From Okeania sp. KiyG1 (GTDB lineage Bacteria; Cyanobacteriota; Cyanobacteriia; Cyanobacteriales; Microcoleaceae): a DNA stretch of 64,000 nucleotides. Location of the stretch: assembly GCF_014132355.1 (NCBI RefSeq), contig NZ_BLZO01000132.1:1-64000 (forward strand), in the 5' to 3' direction. Under the pieces are notes generated by a model. That model did no database searches, was not told the origin of the DNA, and was given only the letters and a program-made list of their open reading frames with translations. Positions 1-11,367 of this stretch are shown here, one piece after another; positions within the stretch are counted from its first letter, which is position 1, and each line of letters opens with the position of its first letter. Both the position numbers and the translations under genes were made by a program.

Positions 1-6
1 GGGCAG

Positions 7-1647
7 TTGCAGATAGTATCTCGGTTTTGGCAGGTATGGCTGGAACAAGAGGACAAGCTTTATCGCTGCTGCCTCAAGTTGATGAGTTTTAACCCAACGG
101 AGGCTGAAGATGCTCTGGGTCAAGCAAGGATCAAGGCTTGGGAAAAGGTGCAAGAGTTGGGGGACTCCATCAGAAATTTAAGAGCTTGGCTAATGCAGTT
201 GACGAGCAACCTCTGCAAAGATATTCTCAAAAAAGACTCTCGGGCTCCAGTGGCTGTAGAAAATATTGAATTGGAGGGGGAGACAGGAGTCCTGTGTACG
301 ATGTCTTCGTTGCCATCGCCCCAGATAGCTCTGGAGGAGGAGGAAAGGTATGTCATGATCCGACGGGCAGTGGCTTCATTATCCCAAGGGATGCGCGATA
401 CTTTTGCTTTACATTATTATGAAGGGGTTGAGTATATAGAAATAGCCGAGCAACAAGGGTTAACCTACGGTAGCGTCTGCAAGAGGATATCAAGGGCACG
501 CCAGGAGTTGAAGAAGAAGTTGAGGGGTTATTTCCGGGATGAGGAAAAACTAGAAAGTGAGTTGGAGCTGATGGGTCGGAAATCGCCAAGGAGAAAGGCC
601 CAAGTGGAGAAGCAGAGTATAGGGTCTGATGGGAAGTCCTCAAAGAAGACGATAACTGTATCGGCTACTGGGAAGTGCGGGCGAGTGGTGGTGGAAGGAA
701 AATCCTCGTTAAAGAATGACCCAGGGTCGCAAAAGGCTTTAGCGGGCTCGGCAAGATCGGAAGTAAGGGTCAAGGGTTTTGCACAGGAGCATTCCCCAAG
801 CAGCTTAGAACAAGTAAAGGAGCGGACCATAGAGTCAGTTAACCCTATTGGGAAGGAGACGGCAACTTTATGGGGAGGGAGGGAGTGTGGGCAAGTGGTA
901 GTAGAAGAAAAACCTTCCTTAAAGAATGGTGCAGTAGAGCAGAGGGCTCTGGTGGTCTCCCAAATCAAGGAAGTAAGGGCCAAGGGTTCTGCACAGGAGC
1001 ATTCCCCAAGCAGGTTAGAACAAGTAGAGGAGCGGACCATAGAGTCAGTTTCTCCTATCGGGAAGGAGACGGCAACTGTATTGGGAGTGAGGAAGTATCG
1101 GCAAGTGGTAGTAGAAGAAAAACCTTCCTTAAAGGATGGTGCAGTGGATCACAGAGCTCTAGTGGTCTCCCAAATCAAGGAAGTAAGGGCCAAGGGTTCT
1201 GCACAGGAGCATTCCCCAAGCAGGTTAGAACAAGTAGAGGAGCGGACCATAGAGTCAGTTTTCCCTATAGGGAAGGAGACGGCAACTGTATCGGGAGCAA
1301 GAAAGTGCGCTGCGGTGGGAGAAAAACGGCGAATTTGTCCGGCGAATGTGTTGGTAGCGATATGTAAACCAAAAAATGACGGGTTGATAAAATTTGAAAA
1401 GCCAGTAAATCAGCGCTTTGAGAATTTACTTGCCCCTCAATTAAAGATTGACAATAGCTCCTCTAGGCAAAAAAAACTGTCAGAAAATCCCTCCTGGAAA
1501 CGTCTTATATATGGAAGGCGATGCCAACCCCGGTATTGGGATAGTTCAGCCGGACAATATCACCCTATGCTACCGGACATGATATTGCTCAAGATTGAAG
1601 TGAGGCAAAAAATTAAGGATGAAGAAGCGTTTAGTTATTTGCTGTGA
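7..1647 (+). CDS. Sigma-70 family (ECF-like) RNA polymerase sigma factor with a long repetitive C-terminal tail; 5' end uncertain
   Basis: Residues ~10-85 look like sigma region 2 (helical, with DALGQARIKAWEKV and RAWLMQLTSNLCKDIL), and ~115-175 like region 4: VASLSQGMRDTFALHYYEG followed by the helix-turn-helix YIEIAEQQGLTYGSVCKRIS. It would direct RNA polymerase to a small regulon. Residues ~180-545 are not sigma-like: a charged tail holding three copies of a 70-residue repeat. The first possible start is TTG at base 7, so the true start may lie before the window. The 3' end overlaps the downstream DUF2235 gene by 29 bases, which suggests co-transcription and translational coupling. No anti-sigma factor is visible. 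Sigma identity is fairly secure; tail function is unknown. Confidence 0.8.
   Translation: MQIVSRFWQVWLEQEDKLYRCCLKLMSFNPTEAEDALGQARIKAWEKVQELGDSIRNLRAWLMQLTSNLCKDILKKDSRAPVAVENIELEGETGVLCTMSSLPSPQIALEEEERYVMIRRAVASLSQGMRDTFALHYYEGVEYIEIAEQQGLTYGSVCKRISRARQELKKKLRGYFRDEEKLESELELMGRKSPRRKAQVEKQSIGSDGKSSKKTITVSATGKCGRVVVEGKSSLKNDPGSQKALAGSARSEVRVKGFAQEHSPSSLEQVKERTIESVNPIGKETATLWGGRECGQVVVEEKPSLKNGAVEQRALVVSQIKEVRAKGSAQEHSPSRLEQVEERTIESVSPIGKETATVLGVRKYRQVVVEEKPSLKDGAVDHRALVVSQIKEVRAKGSAQEHSPSRLEQVEERTIESVFPIGKETATVSGARKCAAVGEKRRICPANVLVAICKPKNDGLIKFEKPVNQRFENLLAPQLKIDNSSSRQKKLSENPSWKRLIYGRRCQPRYWDSSAGQYHPMLPDMILLKIEVRQKIKDEEAFSYLL
681..1310 (+). repeat. Three tandem 210-bp coding repeats in the sigma-factor tail
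   Basis: Near-identical segments begin at 681, 891 and 1101, exactly 210 bp (70 codons) apart, so the frame is kept. The unit runs from QVVVEEKPSLK through AQEHSPSRLEQVEERTIES to PIGKETAT. Copies 2 and 3 are much closer to each other than to copy 1, as expected from a recent duplication. Confidence 0.9.
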
Positions 1648-2635
1648 TGGTACATGGCAAGATTTAAAAAGTTCTTACCCAAGTAACATAGTAAAAATTA
1701 CTCAAGCAGTCAAACCAATAGCTAGTGACGGAACCCCACAAATCCTCTTTTACGACTCAGGAATTGGGACAGAAAGCAACAAAATATTAGGAGGCGCTGC
1801 CGGAGTAGGAATTGATACAAATATACAAGATGGCTATAGATTTCTCTGTCTCAACTATGTTGATGGAGATGAAATCTATTTGTTTGGATTCAGTCGTGGT
1901 GCTTATACGGTCAGAAGTTTGGCAGGGATGATCTACTGTTCGGGGCTTCTAAAACGTTCTTGTATTAAGGAAGCACCGAAAGCTTACGAGCTTTATCGCC
2001 AACGAAATGTTAAACCGAGCGATAAGGAAGCTACTGATTACCGGAAAAATAACGGTGAACGTGTTCCTATTTCTCTAATCGGTTGTTTTGATACCGTAGG
2101 TGCTCTAGGGATTCCTGTTGTCCCCTTATTTCAACGGTTTAAGTCTCTACTTCATAGACGTTATAAATTCTATGACACGAAATTAAACAAATATGTGCAG
2201 AATGCACTGCACGCTATGGCCATAGATGAAATTCGGGAAATTTTTGATGTGACTCCCATGAACAAAAACCCTAAGGCGGAAAATCAACGAGTGATTCAAA
2301 AGTGGTTCCCTGGCGAACATGGTTGTGTCGGTGGTGGTACAGAAGAACATAGAGGTTTGTCAGATGGGGCATTGAAATGGATGATTGATTCCATTGGCGA
2401 GCTTGGGTTAGGGCTGGAATTTGATATTGATGCAATTCCTACAGGGATTCAACCTGATTGTAAATCAGAATTTAAAAACGATCCAGGATTTTTTAAATTG
2501 GCAGGAATTAAATTTCGTGATGTCAGCGAGGCTATGGAAGAACTTCATGAATCCACGGTTGAACGTTTGAAGAATCGCCAGGATTATCGACCAAAAAATC
2601 TAGAGAAAGTTATTCCTAAACTAAATCTGAAGTAA
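1619..2635 (+). CDS. DUF2235 domain alpha/beta hydrolase (Tle1-like lipase fold)
   Basis: The N-terminus KRLVICCDGTWQ is the DUF2235 hallmark. The nucleophile elbow GFSRG puts Ser92 as catalytic serine. FDTVGALG (Asp158) and EHGCVGGG (His234) match the other triad positions of Tle1-type phospholipases. The protein has 338 aa and no signal peptide, so it is probably cytosolic. In family knowledge, DUF2235 proteins include phospholipases exported as type VI effectors, but no secretion gene is nearby. It overlaps the sigma factor by 29 bases and lies 36 bases before the P450. With a P450 and a lipoxygenase downstream, an inferred role is releasing fatty acid from membrane lipid for oxygenation. 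Fold is confident; substrate is inference. Confidence 0.85.
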   Translation: MKKRLVICCDGTWQDLKSSYPSNIVKITQAVKPIASDGTPQILFYDSGIGTESNKILGGAAGVGIDTNIQDGYRFLCLNYVDGDEIYLFGFSRGAYTVRSLAGMIYCSGLLKRSCIKEAPKAYELYRQRNVKPSDKEATDYRKNNGERVPISLIGCFDTVGALGIPVVPLFQRFKSLLHRRYKFYDTKLNKYVQNALHAMAIDEIREIFDVTPMNKNPKAENQRVIQKWFPGEHGCVGGGTEEHRGLSDGALKWMIDSIGELGLGLEFDIDAIPTGIQPDCKSEFKNDPGFFKLAGIKFRDVSEAMEELHESTVERLKNRQDYRPKNLEKVIPKLNLK

Positions 2636-2671
2636 TTTCGACAATTTCACTACAAAAGTTAGAGGTTTTTT

Positions 2672-3994
2672 ATGTCCTATTTAGAAAGGTACGACAGTAT
2701 TCCGGCAGAAAATGTTAGCGACCGAGTTAATGTTATTAATCAAGGTGTTTGGACCGATTGGACACAATTATTTAAAGAATTGAGAGAAAGTCGTCCCATT
2801 TTTATCACCCCTAAATTTGTCCTAGTTAGTTTATTTCCAGACGTACAGGAAGTTTTATCTCGCTCGGAATACTTCTCAGTGAGAGGTTATACTGGCAAAA
2901 TGGACCCGGTTTTCGGACCTTGTATGCTGTCGAGAGATAACTCAGAACATAACTGGCGAGAAAAGTCCATAATTAGATCAGTGTTGCCCTTGGAAGATTT
3001 GTCAATGGTGAGAAAAATGGCTGGTGAAATTGCTAAATCCAGTTTAGATAAATCAGCAGCAACAGGAAAAATAGAAGTTGTTCACGATTTAGCCAAATTT
3101 GTTCCCATCAGACTTTGCGGTGATTATTTTGGCTTTCCTGGTCCGAATTTGGAAACTATGTATCGTTGGTCAAAAACAACCCAAGACGATATGTTTAGAA
3201 ACTTAACTAACGATCCAACAATTCATGAAGCATCTGTTCAGTCAGGTAATGAAATGCGTGCTTATCTATCTGAACTTCTCAAAGAGAAAAGAGCCAAGGA
3301 AACTGAAACACCTACAAATTTTTTCACATATCTAGCCCAATTTTTCCAACCAAAAACAGCCAACAACGACCAAAAAATTGCACCTGGGGACGTTTTTACC
3401 CGGTTGGCCAACACAAAGTTTCCTGGGGATATTCCCTTCTCGGAAGAGAGAATTATTGCCCACATGATAATTTTTTTGGTGAGTAGCATTGAAGGAACAG
3501 CCCAAGTCATCACCCAGATCATAGAACAACTGCTCAAGCGTCCTGAAATTTTCCAAAAAGCCTTAGCAGCAGCCAAGGCTAACGATGACGAAACATTTGA
3601 TAAATATGTTTGGGAAGCCCTCCGTTTTAATCCCTTTAGTCCTTTTGTCGTGCGTTTCTGCGAAGCAGATTATACCCTCGCAGCAGGAACTCCGAGAGAA
3701 ACCACTATCCCTGCCAAAAGCGTTGTCTTAGCGAGTATCGGTTCAGCTATGTTTGATTCAGCGGTGGTGACTCATCCTGATGAGTTTTCCATTAATCGTC
3801 CTAACTATAACTATATGCACTTTAGTTATGGTAGCCATACCTGTGTTGGAGAACACATTGCTGGAGTAGTAGTTCCCGAGGTGGTTAAACAAACTCTGTT
3901 GCGCCCAGGATTGAGATTTTTGCCAGGGGATGAAGGCAAAGTTGAATATCAAGGTTATATACCAGCACGTTTTGTTGTTGCTTATGACAAGTAA
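2672..3994 (+). CDS. Cytochrome P450
   Basis: The heme-ligand loop FSYGSHTCVGEH fits FxxGxHxCxG with Cys391, and the K-helix motif EALR places E315 and R318. The I-helix stretch FLVSSIEGTAQVI lacks the usual (A/G)Gx(D/E)T oxygen-activation pattern. This is a feature of P450s that rearrange hydroperoxides (CYP74, PpoA C-domain) rather than activate O2, so a hydroperoxide-processing role is plausible. At 440 aa with no membrane anchor it is a soluble bacterial type. The start ATG follows a purine-rich GTTAGAGG. It is co-oriented with the DUF2235 hydrolase 36 bases upstream and with a lipoxygenase downstream, from which it is separated only by an insertion sequence. P450 identity is sure; chemistry is inferred. 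Confidence 0.9.
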   Translation: MSYLERYDSIPAENVSDRVNVINQGVWTDWTQLFKELRESRPIFITPKFVLVSLFPDVQEVLSRSEYFSVRGYTGKMDPVFGPCMLSRDNSEHNWREKSIIRSVLPLEDLSMVRKMAGEIAKSSLDKSAATGKIEVVHDLAKFVPIRLCGDYFGFPGPNLETMYRWSKTTQDDMFRNLTNDPTIHEASVQSGNEMRAYLSELLKEKRAKETETPTNFFTYLAQFFQPKTANNDQKIAPGDVFTRLANTKFPGDIPFSEERIIAHMIIFLVSSIEGTAQVITQIIEQLLKRPEIFQKALAAAKANDDETFDKYVWEALRFNPFSPFVVRFCEADYTLAAGTPRETTIPAKSVVLASIGSAMFDSAVVTHPDEFSINRPNYNYMHFSYGSHTCVGEHIAGVVVPEVVKQTLLRPGLRFLPGDEGKVEYQGYIPARFVVAYDK

Positions 3995-4020
3995 CATAGG
4001 GTGATTAACTGTTAAACTTA

Positions 4021-5336
4021 AACCGTAGAAAATAGTTGTAAAATTTACACTCATTGTTGTAGTATTAAACAAGTAACAACTAAAATCTAAAAAATAGAAA
4101 GTGAATGCGACTTGTTGACAGACATATTATTAACCGAACACATAACTTTTGGCGAGTGTGTGATGAGTTAGCATTTAAGTCTAAAAACTTGTACAACTTA
4201 GCTAACTATTATTGTCGTCAGCATTTTTTCACTTTTCTCAAAAAGTCTGGATTTAACCAAGCTATACCATGGAACCAAAGATAGTGATGCTTACAGAGCC
4301 TTACCAACCAAGGTATCAAAACAAATAATCAAATGCTTGGTTGCCACTTGGCGTGGTTATTTTCAGGCTATAAAAGAATGGTCAAAACGTCCAGAGAAGT
4401 TTTTGGGTAAGCCCAAAATACCCAAATATAAGGACAAAACCAAAGGTAGAAATGTAGTTATATATTCAAAGGAATCAGTCTATAAAGCCCCTTTGAAGAA
4501 TGGTATTTGTCACTTATCTATGAGTCAAATTAAAATACCTGTAGTTGTGGATACTGTCATCGAAGTGAGGATAGTACCTGCGACTGCCTGCTATATAATT
4601 GAAGTTGTCTATGAAAAAACTCTTCAGCCACAAATAAATTCAAGATCTGTAGCCGGGATTGACTTAGGGATTGACCGGTTAGTAGCTCTATCTACAAATA
4701 AGCCTGGTGTCAAACCACTGCTGATTAACGGGAAGCCACTAAAAAGCGTCAATCAACTATATAACAAGCGTAAAGCTAAGTACCAAAGTAACCTCAAAGG
4801 CAACAGAAAAACCAGTCGTAAGATTGAAGCATTAAGTTATCATAGAAATCGTTTTGTCGAGAATTATCTGCATAACACCAGTAAATTAGTGGTTGAGTAT
4901 CTAACCACAAATAATATTGGTACTGTAGTCATAGGCCAAAATGATAATTGGAAACAAGGTGCAAACATCGGTAAAAAAAACAATCAAAACTTTACTCAAA
5001 TACCTCACTCTAAGCTAGTTCAACAGATAACTTATAAATGTGAACTTGCTGGTATTCAAGTTATGGAAACGGAAGAAAGTTACACCAGTAAAACATCTGC
5101 TATTGACTTAGAATTGCCCTTTGCTCAAGAAAATTATGTGGGAAAACGAGTCAAACGGGGTTTGTTTAGGAGTGGAACAGGTAAAGTGATTAATGCCGAT
5201 ATTAATGGCAGTCTTCAGATAATCAGAAAGAAATTTCCAGAGGCTTTTAGTGCCGAGGGAATAGTGAGCTGCGCCGTACAGCCAGTATTGGTTAATCCAA
5301 TATCAAGATAAAAGCTCAGATCGATTTTCTACAGTT
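4021..5336 (+). mobile_element. TnpB-only IS200/IS605-group element (IS1341-like)
   Basis: The element contains a single tnpB-type gene and no TnpA Y1 transposase, so it depended on a transposase in trans. A 13-base sequence AACCGTAGAAAAT at 4021-4033 recurs as an imperfect inverse copy (ATTTTCTACAGTT) at 5324-5336. A small palindrome (ATTGG/CCAAT) lies near 5286-5300. These are consistent with the subterminal structure of IS605-type ends, but exact boundaries are approximate. It is inserted between the P450 and lipoxygenase genes in the same orientation. Confidence 0.7.
4105..5311 (+). pseudogene. tnpB: tnpB RNA-guided nuclease/accessory protein, N-terminal frameshift
   Basis: ATG 4105 opens a typical TnpB N-terminus (MRLVDRHIINRTHNFW, then SKNLYNLANYYCRQHFF), but the frame stops near 4282. 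The homologous continuation (LYHGTKDSDAYRALPTKVSK) resumes one base later, near 4261, and runs to 5311. A one-base insertion therefore splits the gene. RuvC-I is present as AGIDLGIDRLVAL and RuvC-III as INADINGSLQII. The RuvC-II position reads TVVIGQNDNWKQ, without the usual catalytic Glu, and the zinc-ribbon cysteines are absent. A Glu-rich METEESYTSKTS sits where the ribbon begins. The longest intact piece (4337-5311) could still be translated. Confidence 0.8.
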
Positions 5337-5376
5337 TTTTTCGTACGGTCAAATTTATTCACAAGGAGTCATTATC

Positions 5377-7386
5377 ATGTCAGACAAGATCAAAAAAATT
5401 ATCGGTGAAGTTAAGCAAGTTGTGGGTATTACAGTCGCTGATAGTGCTTTAGGCAAAAGTAAAACCGAAAGGGAAGCCAAAAAAAGCATAGTTAAACGCC
5501 ATGAACAGCAGTTTGACAAACCCCTCGATCAATTACGCAAAGCCACTGGGAAGTTAGTTTTTAGCGATACTAACAAGCCATTGCACAATATGGACCTCGA
5601 ATTATGGGACAGGGATATAGGTAGGCCAGGAGATTATTTAGGAACAGGGGTAACTGACGACAATGGTAACTTTGAAATCTATTACGATCCTGCCAAAGGA
5701 GGCTTTCTAGACACGCCAGATTTAGAGTTAAGAGTGCTAGACAGTAAGATTAGTTTTGATAGTAATAGTGACCCAGTTTCTACCTATCGCATTGCATACA
5801 CTATAAAAGGGGAAGACAATGTAAGGGAAAAAGAATATGATTTTGGTACTTGTACTGTTCCCTACTGGCTTTATAAACCTGATAGTCATTTTGCCCGTCT
5901 ATTTTTTAGTGAATTAGAAGGCACGCCAGATGATTATTCTGTTGGTCGTACTCTTCAAGGTTATGATGCGGCTAGTGGTTTAGTACCTATTAAGGCAAAG
6001 CACGTTATTACTAATACACTCAATCCTAACGAACCTACTCTGGCAGAAGTCCAGGCAGCTTATCCACCAAATTTGACCATAAAATTGGATCAAGAAAATC
6101 CAGGGTATAGTCGTAGTGATGAATACTTTGTTTCGTGCATTCTCAATGGGATGAATCCTTGTTTACTAAAACGTAATAAAAACAATCCTCATCAATTTAA
6201 GGTGACATTTAATTGGGATAAGTACGAAAAAGATGATGACCACGATCTGAATAATGTGGAAGCTTTTTTTGAATTGAAAGATGAGAAGTTAATCCCCACT
6301 GCAATAACTATTCAAAGTCGGTATCCAGATTCTATTGCTCCCAATTCTCCTCTAAAAGAGCCAGTTACCTATACTCCCAATGATGGGGAAAAATGGTTAC
6401 AAGCAAAACGTATTTTCCGCACTAATAGTTTCTTTGCGGCTGAAATGATTGAGCATTATATTAAGGCTCATTTGCAGATGGAACAGTATACCATTGCAGC
6501 TTTCCGAAATTTACGCAAAAATCCTGTGCGCCTGATTTTATCTCCTCATATCAAGAGTCTGGTTAACATTAATCAACGGGCTGATGAAGTATTAGTGTCC
6601 CCTACCGTTGGCTTAGTTACTACCAACGGCCCCTTAACTCCTGAAGCAGTGGTAGAAGTATGCAAGGAAAGTATGGCGACTTATGACTGGAAAGGTTGGA
6701 AACCTCGTCAGCCTCTTTGCGAAACTCATACGTTTGCTAAAATTGGTAATCTTTACTGGCAGGTTTTAACTGAATACATTGATATCTTTTTTGAAGATTA
6801 CCAAGAGGAAATAGTGAAAGAATGGCTGGAAATTCGTCGTTTTTCCGATGATATAGTTGAACATAGTGTTGCTTATCAGCCATCCCAACCAAGCGGCTCT
6901 TCTGATGATAGCGACTACGACTGGTATGATTACAATGAGCTTGACCAACCTGATATTCCCAGAGCCACAATTAATGGTATCGTTAAGGCAACTCGACCCA
7001 TTACTGTTTCGGATGAACCTAGTGAGGCAGATATTGAAAACTTAAAAGAGTTTTGTCGTTATGTTGTCTATTACATCACCTTTTGGCATTCTTGGGTTAA
7101 TGATTCTCAAGCGGACGAAGGGGGAGAAGTAGTTTATAGTTCCCTGGCTTTACGCAATGGTAGTTTTGGCAGTGAAGATGATCCAAACATTGCCCCGAAT
7201 ATTATAGAATCAACCAATTTGATCTATATGGTCAATGTTCTGACGGCGATTAAGTACGGCTATATTATCAAGAATGAAGACGACGACATCCCTGAAGAAT
7301 TAACAACAATATTGGCTAGTTACAAGGATCAATTTGCTGATTTTGGCTACGATATTAGCAATATCAGATCCTTGATCAATATTTAG
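5377..7386 (+). CDS. Lipoxygenase with an N-terminal beta-sandwich domain
   Basis: The catalytic helix HYIKAHLQMEQYTIAAFRNL supplies His360 and His365 (HxxxxH). FWHSWVND gives His571 and Asn575, and the chain ends in Ile669, whose carboxylate is the classic fifth iron ligand. All lipoxygenase metal ligands are thus present. PHIKSLVNINQRA matches the conserved strand after the iron helix. Residues ~45-150 resemble a transthyretin-like/C2 sandwich (GKLVFSDTNKPLHNMDLELW). At 669 aa it is normal for bacterial LOX. Expected reaction: stereospecific dioxygenation of polyunsaturated fatty acids to hydroperoxides. AAGGAG lies 11 bases before the ATG. Upstream are the P450 and lipase-like genes. The segment after His571 diverges from plant LOX, so regiospecificity cannot be read. 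Confidence 0.93.
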   Translation: MSDKIKKIIGEVKQVVGITVADSALGKSKTEREAKKSIVKRHEQQFDKPLDQLRKATGKLVFSDTNKPLHNMDLELWDRDIGRPGDYLGTGVTDDNGNFEIYYDPAKGGFLDTPDLELRVLDSKISFDSNSDPVSTYRIAYTIKGEDNVREKEYDFGTCTVPYWLYKPDSHFARLFFSELEGTPDDYSVGRTLQGYDAASGLVPIKAKHVITNTLNPNEPTLAEVQAAYPPNLTIKLDQENPGYSRSDEYFVSCILNGMNPCLLKRNKNNPHQFKVTFNWDKYEKDDDHDLNNVEAFFELKDEKLIPTAITIQSRYPDSIAPNSPLKEPVTYTPNDGEKWLQAKRIFRTNSFFAAEMIEHYIKAHLQMEQYTIAAFRNLRKNPVRLILSPHIKSLVNINQRADEVLVSPTVGLVTTNGPLTPEAVVEVCKESMATYDWKGWKPRQPLCETHTFAKIGNLYWQVLTEYIDIFFEDYQEEIVKEWLEIRRFSDDIVEHSVAYQPSQPSGSSDDSDYDWYDYNELDQPDIPRATINGIVKATRPITVSDEPSEADIENLKEFCRYVVYYITFWHSWVNDSQADEGGEVVYSSLALRNGSFGSEDDPNIAPNIIESTNLIYMVNVLTAIKYGYIIKNEDDDIPEELTTILASYKDQFADFGYDISNIRSLINI

Positions 7387-10287: not shown

Positions 10288-11367
10288 ATGCTTACCACAT
10301 TGCAAAAAAGAAAATGGACGCGTTTGTTTCAAGTCTATGATGCCGATCGAAATGGTACAGTAGAAAAAGATGATTTTGAAGCAATATTTTATAATCTTGC
10401 TCAAGCTCGTAATTTAACTGAGGAAATGCCACAATACCAGCAACTCTATGCAAAGTTTATGGAAGAGTGGGAATATTTGCAAAAAGATGCAGATAAGAAT
10501 GGCAACGGTAAAATTGAGCTAGCAGAATGGCTCCAACACGCCGAACGTCGCATCAATAGTCCAAATATATACCAAATACTTGTTGACCTAGCAAATCTGA
10601 TTTTCGAGTTATTGGATATTGATGGAAATGGGGTTATTGGGGTGGAAGAGTACAAAACTTTTTATTGGAGCTGGCGAATTCCTAAAGATTTAGCTGTAGA
10701 AATTTTTCCTAAGTTAGACCTAAATGGTGATGGCAGTATAACTAAAAAGGAATTCTTGAAATTAGTACGGCAATTTCATCGTAGTGATGACCCTGATGCT
10801 CCCGGAAACTCACTTTTTGCTTTCTATACTACCACACTGCAAAAAAGAAAGTGGACGCGTTTGTTTCAAGTCTATGATGCTGATCGAAATGGTGCAATAG
10901 AAAAAGAAGATTTTGAAGCAATATTTCATAATCTTGCTCAAGCTCGTAATTTAACTGAGGAAATGCCACAATACCAGCAACTCTATGCAAAGTTTATGGA
11001 AGAGTGGGAATATTTGCAAAAAGATGCTGATAAGAATGGCAACGGTAAAATCGAGTTAGCAGAATGGCTCGAACATACCGAGCGTCGCATCAATAGTCCA
11101 AATATATACCAAATACTTGTTGAGATAGCAAATCAAATTTTCGAGTTATTGGATATTGATGGAAATGGGGTTATTGGTTTAGAAGAGTACAAAACTTTTT
11201 ATTGGAGCTGGCGAATTCCTCAAGATTTAGCTGTAGAAATTTTTCCTAAGCTAGACCTAAATGGTGATGGCAGTATAACTAAAAAGGAATTCTTGAAATT
11301 AGTACGGCAATTTCATCGTAGTGATGACCCTGATGATCCTGGGAATTTATTTTTTGCTTATTACTAA
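10288..11367 (+). CDS. Calcium-binding protein with eight EF-hands in two 179-residue units
   Basis: Each unit begins TLQKRKWTRLFQVYDADRNG and holds four EF-hand loops: DADRNGTVEKDD, DKNGNGKIELAE, DIDGNGVIGVEE and DLNGDGSITKKE. The key acidic or Asn residues sit at loop positions 1, 3, 5 and 12 (Asp at 12 in the first). The two units are nearly identical at DNA level and exactly 537 bp apart, so this is a recent in-frame tandem duplication. There is no signal peptide, so a cytosolic Ca2+ buffer or sensor is likely. The usual single-unit relatives (~180 aa) are calcium-binding cyanobacterial proteins. The next gene is secreted and in the same direction, but a ~330-base gap argues against an operon. 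Confidence 0.88.
   Translation: MLTTLQKRKWTRLFQVYDADRNGTVEKDDFEAIFYNLAQARNLTEEMPQYQQLYAKFMEEWEYLQKDADKNGNGKIELAEWLQHAERRINSPNIYQILVDLANLIFELLDIDGNGVIGVEEYKTFYWSWRIPKDLAVEIFPKLDLNGDGSITKKEFLKLVRQFHRSDDPDAPGNSLFAFYTTTLQKRKWTRLFQVYDADRNGAIEKEDFEAIFHNLAQARNLTEEMPQYQQLYAKFMEEWEYLQKDADKNGNGKIELAEWLEHTERRINSPNIYQILVEIANQIFELLDIDGNGVIGLEEYKTFYWSWRIPQDLAVEIFPKLDLNGDGSITKKEFLKLVRQFHRSDDPDDPGNLFFAYY

Follow-up and report, generated by a model that had tools for sequence, protein, structure and literature searches.

The first 7,386 bases of a 64,000-nucleotide stretch of DNA from Okeania sp. KiyG1 (contig NZ_BLZO01000132.1; the whole stretch is referred to below as the window) carry the genes for a Tle1-like serine lipase, a cytochrome P450 and a lipoxygenase (LOX), which we regard as likely to form a cassette for oxylipin biosynthesis, with a P450 that rearranges or cleaves hydroperoxides, and to be one version of a wider module of lipase, dioxygenase and hemoprotein. 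In the pathway that we infer, flux would run from the lipase, which would release a polyunsaturated fatty acid (PUFA) from a membrane lipid, to the LOX, which would insert dioxygen and so form one defined hydroperoxide (9R for the crystallised enzyme CspLOX1; S, probably 13S, for the window copy), and from there to the P450, which would rearrange or cleave this hydroperoxide to a product of the allene oxide, epoxy alcohol or aldehyde type with no need for a redox partner. The wider cyanobacterial module would consist of a dedicated lipase followed by a swappable dioxygenase (LOX, mini-LOX, or a cyclooxygenase (COX)-like dioxygenase (DOX) of the 10S-DOX type) and a hemoprotein (P450 or catalase-related). 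A PUFA substrate is plausible, since four fatty-acid desaturase family genes are present in the genome of the window. The features of the region are as follows.

1..1647, + strand: ECF (extracytoplasmic function)-type sigma factor with a long C-terminal part (Sigma70_r4_2, 2.3e-10)
1619..2635, + strand: Tle1-like serine lipase (PF09994; T6SS_Tle1-like_cat, 3.1e-81; motif GFSRG)
2672..3994, + strand: cytochrome P450 without N-terminal extension, proposed hydroperoxide-transforming enzyme (p450, 1.4e-17; I-helix SSIEGT)
4337..5311, + strand: decayed TnpB-type gene of an IS200/IS605-like element (OrfB_IS605, 5.6e-21)
5377..7386, + strand: lipoxygenase, orthologue of CspLOX1 (PDB 5EK8) by alignment, with the iron-ligand positions and Ala402 (Lipoxygenase, 1.9e-10)

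An earlier reading of this DNA from its letters alone (the original prediction) had described four co-oriented genes here. When the junctions were recomputed from the open reading frames, the positions and orientation of all four were recovered, together with the overlap of 29 nt between the sigma factor and the lipase and the gap of 36 nt between the lipase and the P450; 1382 nt separate the P450 from the LOX. The + strand row between positions 1 and 7386 comprises five frames; of these, the TnpB-type gene had been named only as an insertion sequence. The assignment of the second gene as a DUF2235 (here PF09994) serine hydrolase agrees with its Pfam match and its GFSRG motif, which is invariant across nine aligned lipases.

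The LOX, P450 and lipase were searched for in 389 genomes of the order of the window (Cyanobacteriales). Full-length members of the LOX clade with at least 60% identity were found in 14 genomes besides that of the window; a scan of GTDB contigs for the LOX gave 14 loci, 9 on contigs already known and 5 in additional genomes, and the LOX-clade set used below comprises 20 genomes including the window's. Outside this set, LOX fragments alone occur in five of the 389 genomes (G289, G261, G256, G286, G349) and LOX relatives of 42% identity in three; the latter (L067, L068, L069) have His and Ser at the final two iron-ligand positions in the alignment and share a distinct neighbourhood. A search of plasmids gave no match.

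Among the 20 genomes, a P450 orthologue is present in the LOX row in 11, the lipase is intact in 11 and in pieces in 2 (Anabaena 54, Aphanizomenon FACHB-1287), and both are intact in 8. The block without the insertion sequence, which the original prediction had proposed to look for, is thus present in other cyanobacteria, and its expectation that the gene order would be conserved in relatives holds. The order lipase-P450-LOX is seen in G169, G129 and Crocosphaera MO_202.B2; lipase-NTF2-P450-LOX in Dolichospermum UHCC 0259 and Nostoc CHAB 5844; lipase-NTF2-P450-second P450-LOX in Cyanothece BG0011; lipase-P450-DUF1304-LOX in G330; lipase-second P450-LOX-CATb in Anabaena 4-3; lipase-LOX-CATb in G274; lipase-LOX in Tolypothrix FACHB-123; and catalase-related-LOX in G098. 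The NTF2-like protein lies beside 5 of the 11 P450s (DUF6841, 6.6e-8 in Nostoc CHAB 5844, below the cut-off in Cyanothece BG0011). The second P450 (462-468 residues; L055, L056) is different from the first and immediately precedes the LOX; one of these two loci is without the first P450. Two loci that lack the Tle1-like lipase have a class-3 lipase (PF01764) next to the LOX: that of Pseudanabaena cinerea, on the same strand, and that of G266, on the opposite strand. A comparison of nine loci with the others gave no more than scattered single matches beyond the cassette, which identifies the cassette as the unit conserved over distance; among close Nostocales relatives, L054, L060 and L071 (L071 having just a LOX fragment) do have flanks in common.

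The LOX and the P450 are inherited together. At a cut-off of 1e-30 the P450 matches 15 of the 389 genomes, and all ten orthologues with at least 59% identity (the window's included) adjoin this LOX. The other five matches are weaker (31-45% identity): no LOX lies within the available stretch beside those of G198 (a 5.9-kb contig) and G268, the two whose neighbours were seen, while G346, G272 and G249 stand outside the count. The identity matrices of LOX and P450 are correlated (rho = 0.85, permutation p = 0.0005, n = 11), and the main groups agree between the two trees. LOX and P450 are thus adjacent and co-inherited, as expected of a dioxygenase/hemoprotein gene pair.

The original prediction had spoken of a dedicated lipase, and the clade of this lipase is indeed tied to fatty-acid dioxygenases. 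Lipase matches at 1e-40 occur in 101 of the 389 genomes, most of them without this LOX, and this initial case against a dedicated lipase was reversed by the neighbours of the 41 full-length matches with at least 64% identity: in 40 of them a gene for a fatty-acid dioxygenase follows within 3.5 kb downstream, on the same strand, and the remaining one (G225) lies at a contig edge with 62 bases left. The partner is this LOX in 9 loci, a mini-LOX in 1 and the COX-like DOX in 30. The mini-LOX locus belongs to G285, of the same bacterial family as the window (lipase identity 88%), and continues with a mini-LOX of 460 residues and a catalase-related protein; a catalase-related gene likewise comes next in 29 of the 30 DOX loci, and the remaining DOX locus is truncated where its contig ends. 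In the copies run against Pfam the DOX is an animal heme peroxidase (PF03098, e.g. 1.9e-49). In six loci of the window's bacterial family (L128, 5219-8017, and L156-L160) lipase and DOX form one open frame of 905-944 residues, and the one frame checked by Pfam (932 residues) matches both Tle1-like and An_peroxidase models. Seven partial lipase matches with at least 64% identity (two in G357; one each in G044, G139 C79, G125 C55, G197 and G148) fall outside the 41. An additional frame, which by eye resembles a transposase, divides the DOX gene in L126 (8094-11078; G033).

Unrelated enzymes appear to have been exchanged behind this lipase. In a tree of 31 lipases (11 from LOX loci and 20 others), nine LOX loci and the G285 mini-LOX locus form a LOX-type group (support 92/80) beside a DOX-type group (88/93), with the DOX-type lipase of G362 outside both. 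Two lipases from LOX loci, those of Nostoc CHAB 5844 and Tolypothrix, are placed inside the DOX-type group (95/96, 87/91), so that this LOX appears, with moderate supports, to have moved in behind DOX-type lipases in two lineages. The genome of the window, whose only lipase match at 1e-40 is the window copy, contains a mini-LOX (78% identical to that of G285) paired with a catalase-related protein (83%), and no lipase, where G285 has lipase-mini-LOX-catalase-related, the shared site (L135, L114) being judged from the first residues of two upstream genes. The DOX was not found (1e-30) in 18 of 19 genomes (15 of the LOX clade, G285 and the three with the 42% relatives); the exception, G225, has both systems in one row, P450-DUF1304-LOX-DOX-catalase-related.

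A profile of seven of the catalase-related proteins matches the coral allene oxide synthase 1u5u at 6.3e-40, as compared to 3.7e-9 for the best true catalase. The P450 thus holds the place that a catalase-related hydroperoxide enzyme takes in the DOX loci, and in G098 a catalase-related gene comes before this LOX; by position the P450 takes over their third step, and its chemistry would be expected to correspond. The protein that we call CATb (422-444 residues with a hydrophobic N-terminus), which follows the LOX in Anabaena 4-3 and G274 (L061, 6482-7816; L086, 12115-13383), was considered as a further catalase-related enzyme: neither copy matches a Pfam family, the Pfam catalase model included, and no PDB match was obtained. 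As an alignment with hhalign (probability 0.66 of 100, E = 0.087) and a single-sequence structure prediction (mean predicted local distance difference test, pLDDT, 36.4) added nothing firmer, it is left unclassified.

The LOX of the window can be placed with respect to an enzyme of known structure. It aligns to PDB 5EK8 across residues 1-669 (1028.7 bits) and is 64% identical over its full length to the LOX of G169, which itself matches 5EK8 end to end at the level of a self match (1566 bits), and for this reason we take G169 as Cyanothece PCC 8801. The window LOX is, as judged from these alignments, the orthologue of CspLOX1, the crystallised 9R-lipoxygenase (PMC5437038; this source and PMC13049297, PMC11719350 and PMC11507377 below are cited from partial text). 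All five iron ligands that the original prediction had listed are in place (H360, H365, H571, N575 and the C-terminal I669). Assignment of 5EK8 to the second enzyme, CspLOX2, was ruled out, as CspLOX2, an enzyme with an 11R product, corresponds to 5MED and ends in Ile 569, and the published residue numbers of CspLOX1 fit 5EK8 (PMC5437038). At the positions tabulated for CspLOX1 (Tyr360, Ile397, given as Ile379 in the running text, Gly401, Leu405, Ile617 and Leu621; PMC5437038) the G169 LOX has Y, I, G, L, I, L and the window LOX Y, I, A, L, M, L, so that four of six clamp residues are kept, with Ala402 in place of Gly401 and Met618 in place of Ile617.

The first of these replacements falls at the Coffa-Brash determinant, which is Gly in R-specific and Ala in S-specific enzymes (PMC5437038). 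Among the 20 rows of the LOX clade, Gly is found only in UBA11370, G129, G169 (the PCC 8801 type) and Tolypothrix, and the window LOX lacks this correlate of 9R specificity. Because of Ala402, its product is predicted to be S, probably 13S, and 9R should not be assumed; this prediction is made uncertain by the Gly401Ala mutant of CspLOX1, which yielded 6% 11-HPODE (hydroperoxyoctadecadienoic acid) with 5-8% of wild-type activity (PMC5437038). A link between Gly or Ala in the LOX and the I-helix type of the P450 was considered and dropped, because all Gly rows with a P450 fall into a single clade in either tree, which may reflect one event, and offer no independent evidence. Two unusual architectures were seen among LOX relatives: in Microcoleaceae UBA11344 (L053, 1545-4319) a LOX of 924 residues with Laminin_G_3/concanavalin-like domains adjoins the CspLOX1-type LOX, and in L140 (2539-4956) a frame of 805 residues, a catalase-LOX fusion with weak matches to catalase (25.7 bits) and to lipoxygenase, lies two genes from a relative (34%) of the window LOX.

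The P450 probably reshapes the lipid peroxide made by the LOX. It has the ExxR motif and the heme loop FSYGSHTCVG, and in its I-helix, SSIEGT, the acidic residue is retained and the usual Thr is Gly. The original prediction had called this I-helix non-oxygenase-like, a description that applies to the protein in question and, counting it, to 6 of the 11 orthologues (GSIEGT or SSIEGT), and fails for the other 5, which keep E/D-T-T. CYP74 enzymes have an unusual heme-binding loop and have lost the I-helix Thr; here the loop is the ordinary FxxGxHxCxG in all 11 (one with Y for F) and the Thr is lost in 6. CYP152 peroxygenases carry Arg-Pro in the I-helix; none is found in SSIEGT or its counterparts, the single Arg-Pro flagged (L074) being RPEI past the I-helix, and the NCBIfam CYP152 model scores 25.5 bits against a cut-off of 600. 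Five of the 11 orthologues (L064, 6086-7825, and four other loci) have an N-terminal extension of ~160 residues, which the window copy lacks; it matches beta-trefoil entries of the PDB weakly in one copy (7zoi, 1.1e-5; FRG1, 0.002) and Pfam FRG1 just below the cut-off in another, and might bind a sugar or a lipid head group. A structure prediction for the P450 from a 7-row alignment had a mean pLDDT of 34.4, which is too low to be of use.

Several observations weigh against the cassette as we read it. In the window itself the P450-LOX junction is interrupted by the TnpB element, which is decayed: its model match begins at model position 84, and a short frame upstream (~4105-4281), in another reading frame, resembles the missing start by eye. 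Neither lipase nor P450 accompanies the LOX in 4 of the 20 genomes (G372; G258, at a contig edge; G098; Pseudanabaena cinerea). Lipase and LOX distances are uncorrelated (rho = -0.21, p = 0.91, n = 11), and among 11 more distant lipases (47-62% identity, below the 64% limit) whose neighbours were inspected, 2 have the same DOX context and 9 have no dioxygenase (two of these with <400 bases downstream). Only G098 and the combined row of G225 have an evident catalase-related gene next to a LOX of this clade. Finally, the acid-alcohol pair of ordinary monooxygenases is retained, by alignment, in 5 of the 11 P450 orthologues, and the solved P450s ranked highest (best 60 of 249) are mostly named monooxygenases or hydroxylases, such as YjiB (7y97) and the mycinamicin IV hydroxylase (5uhu).

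These last two points, together with the ordinary bacterial heme loop, are what a conventional monooxygenase would lead one to expect, which would hydroxylate or epoxidise a free PUFA or a LOX-derived alcohol by means of a general ferredoxin and would yield oxylipins without rearrangement of a hydroperoxide. We consider this unlikely, though it is the strongest of the alternatives, because the P450 occupies the slot of catalase-related hydroperoxide enzymes, the I-helix Thr is lost in 6 of the 11 orthologues, and no redox partner was recognised among the gene clusters present in at least three loci, some clusters confined to close relatives being unannotated. An improbable alternative is membrane repair or detoxification, in which the lipase would strip damaged acyl chains and the LOX and P450 would degrade them, with no signal as the outcome; lipases and hydroperoxide enzymes do in general suit lipid turnover, and no recurring export or receptor gene was recognised beside the cassettes, but a LOX produces a hydroperoxide instead of removing it, and a lipase clade dedicated to dioxygenases points to synthesis. 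A role of the Tle1-like protein as an antibacterial phospholipase effector, with an incidental place beside P450 and LOX, as the naming of its Pfam family after effectors of the type VI secretion system (T6SS) might suggest, is strongly disfavoured and has hardly any probability left, given the dioxygenase downstream in 40 of 41 close relatives and the six that share one frame with it.

The sigma factor, which the original prediction had counted as a member of the set, is in our analysis not part of the cassette: a search of the other LOX loci (L053-L086) gave no match to it at E 1e-4, and it belongs to a multi-copy family, for which the genome of the window has 9 matches, itself included, and 31 of 60 genomes of the bacterial family have a match. 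Its frame is open at base 1 of the window, where the contig of 64,001 bases also begins, and the C-terminal part of the gene contains a 210-bp tandem repeat of 2.6 copies (759-1297). Further downstream, positions 10288-11367 of the window encode a protein of two near-identical halves, each with acidic loops that by eye are EF-hand-like.

These results can be considered with regard to how oxylipin pathways are assembled. Oxylipin biosynthesis by lipase, LOX and P450 would supply a first and a third step for a bacterial lipoxygenase that has been crystallised, would predict a new family of hydroperoxide-handling P450s, and would recast one branch of a family that Pfam names after toxin effectors as lipases that supply the substrate from which oxidised lipids are made; the same three positions, filled repeatedly by unrelated enzymes, would amount to a natural experiment on the assembly of oxylipin pathways. 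This exchange suggests that bacteria build plant- or animal-like signal lipids from interchangeable parts. A bolder version, which we advance tentatively and hold to be somewhat short of an even chance, combines a plug-in oxylipin module, a P450 family with independently evolved hydroperoxide chemistry and a switch from 9R to S (probably 13S) in the clade of the window, leading to plant-like 13-hydroperoxides.

The pairing of a hemoprotein with a LOX is known, and catalase-related allene oxide synthase and LOX genes in one operon have been published (PMC11507377); the P450 in this slot and the dedicated lipase are the parts for which we found no description. Our literature search, which covered listings and selected passages and did not extend to the primary papers on the CspLOX1 structure and the 10S-DOX, gave no description of this P450 or lipase beside a LOX and no paper combining DUF2235 and lipoxygenase, and the terms P450, operon and gene cluster are absent from the main text of PMC5437038 as available.

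Among known systems, the LOX and CYP74 of plants and the DOX-CYP fusions of fungi also couple a dioxygenase to a P450 that acts on its hydroperoxide (PMC13049297, PMC11507377), whereas the window P450 has an ordinary bacterial heme loop, is encoded by a separate bacterial gene, and among the best 60 of 249 PDB sequences shows no close relation to the CYP74 or DOX-CYP P450s. The catalase-LOX fusion of Acaryochloris, with a 9R product, resembles the cassette in that a LOX is coupled to a hemoprotein transforming its hydroperoxide, and differs in that this hemoprotein has a catalase fold; a lipase is not mentioned in the available part of that source (PMC11719350). Nostoc punctiforme has a 10S-dioxygenase and a catalase-related 10S-hydroperoxide lyase (Brash et al. 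2014, as cited in PMC13049297), again a dioxygenase followed by a hemoprotein, and the DOX loci described here follow the same lipase clade as the window LOX; 5 of 5 DOX proteins inspected contain the start of the 10S-DOX central motif, L118 and L121 also having Tyr305 and Tyr342 under identical residue numbers, and 1 of 5 contains the terminal motif as written for the search (motifs from PMC13049297). Both enzymes of that pair are unrelated to the window LOX and P450. The closest counterpart is CspLOX1 of Cyanothece PCC 8801 itself, which differs from the window system in the two clamp residues and in the N-terminal extension of its P450, and which is orthologous, has the same iron-ligand positions and is likewise encoded after a Tle1-like lipase and this P450 (L064).

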